From positions 1 through 42,716 of the forward strand of contig JADFXV010000019.1 of the NCBI GenBank assembly GCA_015233395.1: a DNA stretch of 42,716 bases. The letters run 5' to 3'. Made by a program: the position numbers and the translations under genes. The DNA is from Desulfovibrionaceae bacterium. GTDB lineage: Bacteria > Desulfobacterota > Desulfovibrionia > Desulfovibrionales > Desulfovibrionaceae. Positions 24,347 through 25,925 of this stretch are shown in pieces. Under the pieces are notes generated by a model that saw only the letters and a program-made list of their open reading frames with translations, did not search any database and was not told where the DNA came from. The first letter of the stretch is position 1. The number at the start of each line of letters is the position of its first letter.

Positions 24347-24433
24347 ATGTTTTTGAAGGGAATGGCGGTCGTGGTGAAACGTATCGAGTGGGAACCCCGC
24401 CCCCTGACGTGGGGGTCCGGGGGCGATCATCGC

Positions 24434-24510
24434 CCCCGGCGGGGTCTGGGGCGGAGCCCCAGCGGGATCCGGGGCGGCGCCCCCGGCGGGGTCCGGGGCG
24501 GTGCCCCGGG
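24434..24510. repeat. Tandem 23-24 bp GC-rich repeat (family C)
   Basis: Three head-to-tail units of the form CCCCGGCGGGGTCCGGGG plus CGGNG occupy 24434-24456, 24457-24479 and 24480-24503, with a partial fourth. The end abuts the stop codon of the leftward Amt-like gene. 24395-24433 adds related GGGGGCGATCATCGCCCCC hairpins. Confidence 0.75.
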
Positions 24511-24511
24511 T

Positions 24512-25834
24512 TCATTTGTCCGGCAGCGCCGCGAGCGCTCGTTGGGCGAGCATGAGTCCGCGCTGGAGCAGCCAGACCACGGCGATGGTCCAGGCGGCCG
24601 TCGCCGCCGCGCCGGTGAGTTCGATGCCGGCCAGGGTTACGCCTCCGGCCACGAACATGTCGTTGACCAGGAGCGACGGTTGCGCAAGCGCGACCAGGCC
24701 GGTCGCGGCGGCTCCGAGCGCTCCGCCAAGCCCGAGCGCCAGGACGCGGCGGGCCGCATTCGTCAAATCGAGCGCGGCGGCGAGACCGGCAAGGACCATC
24801 CGGACCAGGCTTCCGGCCAGCGCGCCGATGAGCGGGACCGCCCACCAGGGGGCTGCGGCCAGGGCGCTTGAGAGCGCCGCCACCCCGGCGGCCAGGCCGA
24901 GGGCCTCGTGTTCTCCCAGGTTTTCGCGCCACGCCGCCAGGGCCGGCCCCCCCGCGCGCAACAGGCTTGCAAGCCAGGACAATCCGGCTTTGGCTCCGTT
25001 CTCGGCGGCGACCGAGGCGGCCTTGGCCCCCAGAGCGCCGCACAAGCCGCCGAGAACCAGCGCGACCAGGGCGCCGAAAAAATATCCTCCGCTAGCCCGG
25101 GTCGCGAGCGCTGCGGCCAAAAGCCAGCAGCACAGCGCGATCCGCCAGCCCGGTCCGCCGCCTTCCGGAAACGCGGGCGGCGCGTTCGACCCCGGCATTC
25201 CCGGTTGCGGCGTTTTTGGCTGCGGCGCGCCGGACGGCGCGTCTCCGCCGAGCAGTCCGGCCAGGGCGGCGGCCGCGCCGCAAACGAGCGCGCAAACGCC
25301 TCCGGCGGCGTCGAAAAAGCCCCGCGTCGCGAGCCAGCCCGCGCCCGGCGGTCCGAGCCAGCGGGAGCCGATTGTCCAATGGCCGGCGACGGGAAAGATC
25401 AGGGCGCAGACGACCGCGCACATCAGGGCGTTGCCGGCCCGGGTCAGGCGCTCGCCGTTGACGGCGTAGAACATCCAGAACGGGACCAGGGCCAGCCCCA
25501 GGTGGTAGAGGAAAAACGAGGCCGCGCCCAAGCCCGGGGCTTCGCCAGCTCCCCCTGCTCCCGGGAGTCCGGCCTGGGCGGCGGGGTGGCTCGCGCCCGG
25601 GGGCAGGCCGAGAACTGCGCCCGCGTCGGCGCCGAAAAGCAGCCAGGAGCCGATCAAGAAATAGGCCGCCGCGCCGCAGGCCGCGCACACGGTCATGTCC
25701 CGAAAGACCCTCGCCCCGGATTTGCCTTGCCGCGCGGCGACGGCGAGCGCCGCGCCGGCGGGCAGGACCAGGCACAAAAGAGCGGCCGCCAGGGCGAGAG
25801 CGAAACCGCCTTGCGGCGCGGCCGGGCCGGTCAT
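24512..25834 (-). CDS. Divergent ammonium-transporter-like (Amt/Rh fold) membrane protein without the pore histidines
   Basis: A 440-aa Ala/Gly/Leu-rich protein with about ten to eleven membrane helices. Alignment by eye to AmtB runs along its length: FLIGSWLLFGADAGAVLG (cf. GYSLAFG), then FFLYHLGLALVPFWMFYAVN GERL as separate blocks, GHWTIG, GAGWLATRGFFDAAGG, and a final GVTLAGIELTGAAATAAW. AmtB Asp160 is kept (Asp175). The twin pore histidines appear as Leu183 (AGGVCALVCG) and Leu367 (VLALGLGG). The WFGWFGFN block is lost, and a Pro-rich linker (about 198-228) joins the halves. No glnK is adjacent. It is unlikely to conduct ammonium as AmtB does; a structural or sensor-like role is only a guess. 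GTG 25849 is an alternative start. Confidence 0.6.
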   Translation of the reverse strand: MTGPAAPQGGFALALAAALLCLVLPAGAALAVAARQGKSGARVFRDMTVCAACGAAAYFLIGSWLLFGADAGAVLGLPPGASHPAAQAGLPGAGGAGEAPGLGAASFFLYHLGLALVPFWMFYAVNGERLTRAGNALMCAVVCALIFPVAGHWTIGSRWLGPPGAGWLATRGFFDAAGGVCALVCGAAAALAGLLGGDAPSGAPQPKTPQPGMPGSNAPPAFPEGGGPGWRIALCCWLLAAALATRASGGYFFGALVALVLGGLCGALGAKAASVAAENGAKAGLSWLASLLRAGGPALAAWRENLGEHEALGLAAGVAALSSALAAAPWWAVPLIGALAGSLVRMVLAGLAAALDLTNAARRVLALGLGGALGAAATGLVALAQPSLLVNDMFVAGGVTLAGIELTGAAATAAWTIAVVWLLQRGLMLAQRALAALPDK

Positions 25835-25925
25835 GAACTTTTTTTCCACACTTGCATTGCCGCTCCATTGGACCTATAGGCGGCCTCGACCGCCGCGCGA
25901 CCCAACCCCAACAAAGTGACGCATC

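Follow-up and report, generated by a model that had tools for sequence, protein, structure and literature searches.

The twin histidines, the outer site and the Phe gate of Amt proteins have hitherto been dissected singly, by means of engineered mutants. In E. coli AmtB, as reported in PMC7447429, the double mutant H168A/H318A interacts with NH4+ without transporting it, the triple mutant S219A/H168A/H318A carries no current at all, and the single alanine mutants of the twin histidines are permeable to K+, a current that is absent from H168A/H318A. Yeast that depends on H168A/H318A does not grow on ammonium, whereas the single H168A and H318A mutants each sustain such growth, and simulations of the double mutant give few pore waters and a tighter constriction, according to the account in PMC3647058. 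The acidic pair H168D/H318E is described as hydrating the pore and admitting K+ (PMC9040831). In the open-access literature we found no report of a natural prokaryotic Amt in which both histidines are aliphatic.

Within the wider family, the Rh30 blood-group proteins RhCE and RhD lack the twin histidines, are not known to transport and assemble with RhAG. They are described as fast-evolving duplicates (PMC5209957). KsAmt5, one of the Amt-histidine kinase sensors, likewise contains a prokaryotic Amt domain and is non-transporting, but by the description in PMC10433425 it keeps the twin histidines, the gate and the binding site and carries a kinase.

Here we describe a gene from a Desulfovibrionaceae bacterium (GCA_015233395.1; 3.37 Mb, 98.9% complete, dsrA present), located on contig JADFXV010000019.1 in a 42,716-nt stretch of DNA that we refer to as the window. 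Its predicted product has in common with Amt/Mep/Rh proteins such as AmtB and the sensor Amts 6eu6 and Sd-Amt1 (8qj3) the fold, its 11 helices and inner/outer charge pattern, Asp160, GHW, Trp212 and many conserved glycines. It differs from them in lacking the C-terminal tail, the twin histidines, the outer site, the Phe gate and almost the whole of the WFGWFGFN block; the features that KsAmt5 retains, the kinase included, are among those that it is without.

The gene and its homology to Amts

The gene is solitary: purE, on the plus strand, is convergent on one side, and ychF is divergent on the other, 91 bases away (Table 1). A GTG at 25849, 15 bases upstream of the ATG, offers an alternative start that would add five residues (445 aa). 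Immediately 3' of the stop, at 24431-24507, lie three GC-rich direct repeats of 30 nt each at a spacing of 23-24 nt. A promoter scan found 0 against 0.0 expected.

Table 1. Positions in the window of the Amt-like gene, its aligned residues and a neighbouring repeat.
Feature	Position	Strand	Remarks
Divergent Amt-fold gene	24512..25834	minus	ATG start, 440 aa
Leu114, at AmtB Phe107 (outer site and Phe gate)	25493..25495	minus	top-class posterior; TM3 poorly conserved
Ile155, at AmtB Trp148 (outer site)	25370..25372	minus	top-class posterior; best-conserved stretch of the protein
Asp175, at AmtB Asp160 (retained)	25310..25312	minus	codon GAC; 4/4 aligners; top-class posterior
Leu183, at AmtB His168 (TM5)	25286..25288	minus	codon CTC; 4/4 aligners; top-class posterior
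Pro-rich linker joining the halves, residues 197-229	25148..25246	minus	10 Pro in 33 residues
Ala240, at AmtB Phe215 (Phe gate)	25115..25117	minus	TM6 alignment weak; posterior about 0.6
Ala244, at AmtB Ser219 (outer site)	25103..25105	minus	TM6 alignment weak; posterior about 0.6
Leu367, at AmtB His318 (TM10)	24734..24736	minus	codon CTC; 4/4 aligners; top-class posterior
Perfect 24-nt inverted repeat, 3-nt spacing/loop	24296..24346	.	between convergent purE and the Amt-like gene; terminator-like

The possibility of a non-coding frame is ruled out by the six-frame coding score, which is 0.335 for this frame and at most 0.051 for the next best, stops being ignored in the other frames. GC3 is 0.83, and the synonymous codon score of 0.476 falls within the range of the neighbours (0.424-0.747). 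The whole-codon score of 0.335 is the lowest among 17 genes (the others span 0.388-0.738), a comparison in which 15 of the other genes also trained the model. Ala, Gly and Leu make up 56% of the residues. Judged by its codons, the frame is open and carries the codon bias of the window.

No Pfam match to PF00909 was obtained at E values up to 10, at which the HMMER filters drop weak matches, and the curated cut-off was not reached. TIGR03644, the 'marine subtype' Amt of Desulfovibrio-like genomes, is the sole NCBIfam match (E 2.5e-10, residues 20-224); it scores 39.7 bits against a curated cut-off of 514, a value that is weak as a test, since none of the 287 family genomes has a match that attains it. 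A PDB sequence search matched three Amt chains, 6eu6 at E 1.4e-5 and two at about 1e-4. Comparison with a profile of 28 Amts (AmtB and 27 sequences from the source genome and its relatives) gave 62.8 bits for the whole protein, 65.9 for the N-terminal half and 12.6 for the C-terminal half. None of 300 full and 300 block shuffles reached the real score for the whole or for either half (best shuffle scores 5.3, 7.2 and 5.3 bits, respectively), the reversed protein scored -3.4 and the MFS protein of the window -4.3. Spurious homology arising from the Ala/Leu-rich composition is ruled out by the shuffles and the MFS protein. Since the C-terminal half outscores every shuffle, the second half is Amt-related too, although its PDB and NCBIfam matches are not significant. 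The initial annotation's assignment of the gene to the Amt family is upheld for both halves.

Among columns conserved in the 28 Amts, the protein keeps 54 of 139, against a mean of 12.3 and a maximum of 20 in a shifted control. Conserved glycines are kept at 25 of 38 positions; the protein's own richness in Gly, Ala and Leu favours the retention of such columns, and the glycine count still exceeds the shifted control (mean 6.1, maximum 13). Retention in the remaining classes is 4/6 for Pro, 10/26 for aliphatic residues, 4/9 for Ala, 4/17 for charged, 5/24 for aromatic, 1/5 for His and 1/14 for polar residues. By this alignment the Amt scaffold is kept and most of the machinery lost, Asp160 and Trp212 being the exceptions.

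Predicted fold and pore residues

AlphaFold2 supplied with 48 Amts as alignment returned a model with pTM 0.86 and mean pLDDT 81.7, in which we count eleven membrane helices and two additional helices at 281-304; run on the protein alone, without homologues, the prediction fails (pTM 0.27). The model thus depends on the canonical Amts fed in, and its match to the fold is not independent of them. With that reservation, it predicts an 11-helix, N-out architecture and so the Amt fold that the first reading of the gene had proposed. The 50 Foldseek matches listed are all Amt/Mep/Rh proteins (best E 1.4e-12), as are all 48 at E 0.001 or better. VIA-align superposes the model on AmtB (1u77) with Z 40.9 and rmsd 2.9 over 363 residues, and gives Z 30.8 for 7uzq, by its entry title the solved RhAG-RhCE complex, whereas the best row outside Amt/Mep/Rh is a urea transporter at Z 12.0. 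A non-Amt fold is ruled out by these Foldseek and VIA-align matches, read as those of a model built on an Amt alignment. Counting Lys and Arg provides a partly separate check on the fold: with loops cut at the helix borders of the model, 14 fall on inner and 3 on outer loops, which is the charge pattern of an Amt.

The Pro-rich linker between the halves, also part of the initial annotation, is confirmed, and confidence in the model drops there (mean pLDDT 58-66 in blocks 201-230). At the C-terminal end, the regulatory tail of ordinary Amts aligns as gaps and mismatches, and the protein stops soon after TM11.

Pore residues were assigned with four aligners: the three MAFFT modes L-INS-i, G-INS-i and E-INS-i, and hmmalign. 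All agree on leucine in place of both pore histidines and on the retained Asp160, as first proposed by eye; two further alignments repeat all three assignments, and another once more puts the histidine columns on residues 183 and 367. The protein has four histidines, at 83, 111, 152 and 309. A search of the pore helices TM5 and TM10 found none, and hence no register shift within either helix can supply one; a misregister concealing a pore histidine is ruled out on this ground. His111 lies in TM3, at the column of a conserved Gln. The four aligners also place N359 at AmtB D310 (hmmalign posterior in the top class) and W237 at Trp212 of the inner S2 site, where the Trp is retained.

How exceptional this is can be gauged from the other Amts: of 167 rows that have a letter at each of the two positions, all 167 carry both histidines, a count biased upward in that AmtB is entered twice, as perhaps are a few genes, and the rows were partly fetched by a pattern for the first histidine. 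A further eight rows were left out for a gap at one or both positions; seven of them have His at the first. The near-universality of the twin histidines in ammonium channels is borne out within that set.

The loss is wider than the initial annotation had recognized: the C-terminal tail, the Phe gate and most of the outer site have gone too. Neither the outer S1 site (F107, W148, S219) nor the Phe gate (F107, F215) is found in the alignment, and Phe107, Trp148, Phe215 and Ser219 are on that showing all lost, with less assurance for the two TM6 residues, whose posterior is about 0.6. The WFGWFGFN block, reported as gone, is nearly so: it reads LCCWLLAA, and the second Trp alone is kept. Taken together, we regard Amt homology with loss of both pore histidines as close to certain.

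Relatives and possible roles

No orthologue was found in 288 family genomes (E 1e-14), 348 class genomes (E 1e-12) or 395 sampled phylum genomes (E 1e-12), overlapping sets in which the four to five best first-look candidates were scored per genome; nor in 59 relatives (E 0.001), nor among the plasmids and phages searched, nor in GTDB or viral contigs queried with six 8-letter words of the protein. The genus-level set consists of one genome, the source itself. Besides itself, the best matches of the protein reach at most 58.6 bits and belong to ordinary Amts from its order and family; every match that was retrieved as a locus and had sufficient length for alignment is a twin-His Amt, and identity to Amts is about 28%. 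In a tree of 61 rows the protein has no supported placement, and its branch is 10 changes per column long, which we take to be the ceiling of the tree program. An AU test of three placements rejected none (p 0.312, 0.467 and 0.32). The suggestion of a separate clade in sulfate reducers finds no support in these genomes or in the tree.

Several of the best tblastn relatives are high scorers of TIGR03644, to which the tree does not assign the protein. In other genomes of the family this model gives scores as high as 415 bits, against a best of 327 in the source genome, on contig C55, where the match belongs to a different tree clade. Perhaps the orphan is what rewriting has left of a missing marine-type gene, a point that the tree does not decide.

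The source genome encodes three ordinary Amts above the Pfam cut-off, two of them adjoining a PII gene, and none on the contig of the Amt-like gene. Its four PII matches lie on contigs C55, C92 and C83, in agreement with the initial remark that the gene is not beside glnK. Synteny gave no counterpart: in 28 relatives, the flanks of ychF, covered for at most 1.5 kb each, contain no frame of at least 60 aa that beats E 0.48 against the Amt profile, and the six longer ychF stretches do not share the purE-ychF order; one of them (L073) has an ordinary Amt about 2.4 kb downstream.

On these data the protein very probably does not conduct ammonium. Its leucine pair should act opposite to the acidic pair of PMC9040831 and seal the pore, an analogy that we infer from mutants described as carrying alanine or acidic residues rather than Leu-Leu. 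Loss of conduction is a firmer conclusion than the 'another activity' at first envisaged.

The explanation that we consider best, at about even confidence, is that the gene descends from a twin-His ammonium transporter and that its product, a membrane protein, has the Amt fold and has lost the conduction of ammonium. Without the outer site, ammonium would not be captured; with leucine for the twin histidines, a proton-carrying water wire could not form, and the pore would become a sealed oily plug. The least certain steps are that the fold is still useful, so that the protein would be kept, and that its most likely role would be that of a non-conducting subunit, joined to further copies of itself or to any of the genome's three ordinary Amts, much as the Rh blood-group proteins join RhAG. 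Retention for a role based on the fold seems to us an evenly balanced proposition, with a partner subunit, by analogy, as the first form to test. Putting a name to a new role is more tentative: a dead partner subunit tuning the cell's ordinary Amts, or a hydrophobic pore through which a small neutral molecule passes. Such a protein would be a prokaryotic counterpart of the Rh blood-group proteins. Those proteins differ in being vertebrate and of the Rh branch, and the protein described here is a putative partner.

Several observations count against our preferred explanation: no orthologue anywhere searched, the lowest whole-codon score, and an Ala/Gly/Leu content such as is expected when GC pressure rewrites a relaxed gene. 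So do the persistence of Asp160 and Trp212, growth of the single-His mutants on ammonium as reported in PMC3647058, the failed model of the protein alone, the drift runs described below that stay open at 80-85% GC, and the location of the genome's own Amts on other contigs.

Some of these observations bear on a rather unlikely but serious alternative, that the gene is a recently relaxed Amt paralogue in decay, redundant beside three intact Amts, open by chance and GC-rich composition and now functionless. The extreme branch, the Ala/Gly/Leu enrichment, the whole-codon score and the missing orthologues all fit decay, and in a relative (G097) the sole TIGR03644 match is a scrap with a stop. We simulated drift by substitutions only, without selection, from one ordinary Amt down to 28% identity. 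No frame stayed open in 400 runs at 66% GC or 400 at 72%, while 9/400 did at 80% and 25/400 at 85%; GC is 64% in the window and 65% in the local intergenic DNA. With all divergence put on this branch, drift is somewhat overstated. The 0/800 open frames at 66-72% GC, set against 440 open codons at about 28% identity, speak against prolonged neutral drift but say nothing against a release from selection in recent times. Decay also sits poorly with the normal synonymous codon bias and with the retention of glycines and charge topology while functional residues are lost, which is unlike uniform drift.

Improbable, in our estimate, though likewise a serious alternative, is a repurposed pore that passes a small neutral or apolar molecule, such as a gas, instead of ammonium. 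The kept fold and Asp160 and the now hydrophobic pore residues would suit such a path, and changes at the twin histidines do alter AmtB selectivity, the single alanine and acidic double mutants passing K+ (PMC7447429, PMC9040831). However, H168A/H318A is reported to carry no K+ current (PMC7447429), its simulated pore holds few waters and is more tightly constricted (PMC3647058), and the neighbours, convergent purE and divergent ychF, suggest no substrate. It is most improbable that the protein still conducts or senses ammonium via other residues, for example His111, Asp175 and Trp237, for although the latter two are kept, His111 stands at a conserved Gln and KsAmt5 is reported as a non-transporting Amt able to sense ammonium, the outer site, gate and both histidines are absent by alignment, the protein ends without a signalling domain and KsAmt5 itself retains site, gate and twin histidines (PMC10433425).

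If a non-conducting Amt-fold protein is indeed what the gene encodes, a natural Amt fold that lacks nearly all of the features dissected in the engineered mutants would show what remains of the scaffold absent selection for transport, namely the glycines, Asp160 and the charge pattern. Provided that the protein is made, the folding and catalytic roles of Asp160 would become separable, and the question arises whether bacteria keep dead Amt-fold subunits as vertebrates do.

Other Amt and PII genes in the family

Two adjacent PII matches of the source genome lie at G000:C83:16949-17635, on a contig that has none of the three ordinary Amts, an arrangement that we take to resemble a nifI1-nifI2 pair. 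The scrap in G097, a 1.6 Mb genome, covers 46 positions with an internal TAG (L211, G097:C14:386-523) and is an Amt remnant. At another locus (L033, G009:C1:387679-388860) the Amt domain continues, within a single open frame of 1394 aa, into repeats that by eye resemble PAS sensors, and in four genomes (G013, G242, G243 and G244) Amt matches lie inside frames of 739-1150 aa; these long frames are possible Amt sensors. Four further loci (L007, L011, L013 and L020) have a second, more distant Amt-like frame, scoring about 130 bits, near an ordinary Amt.
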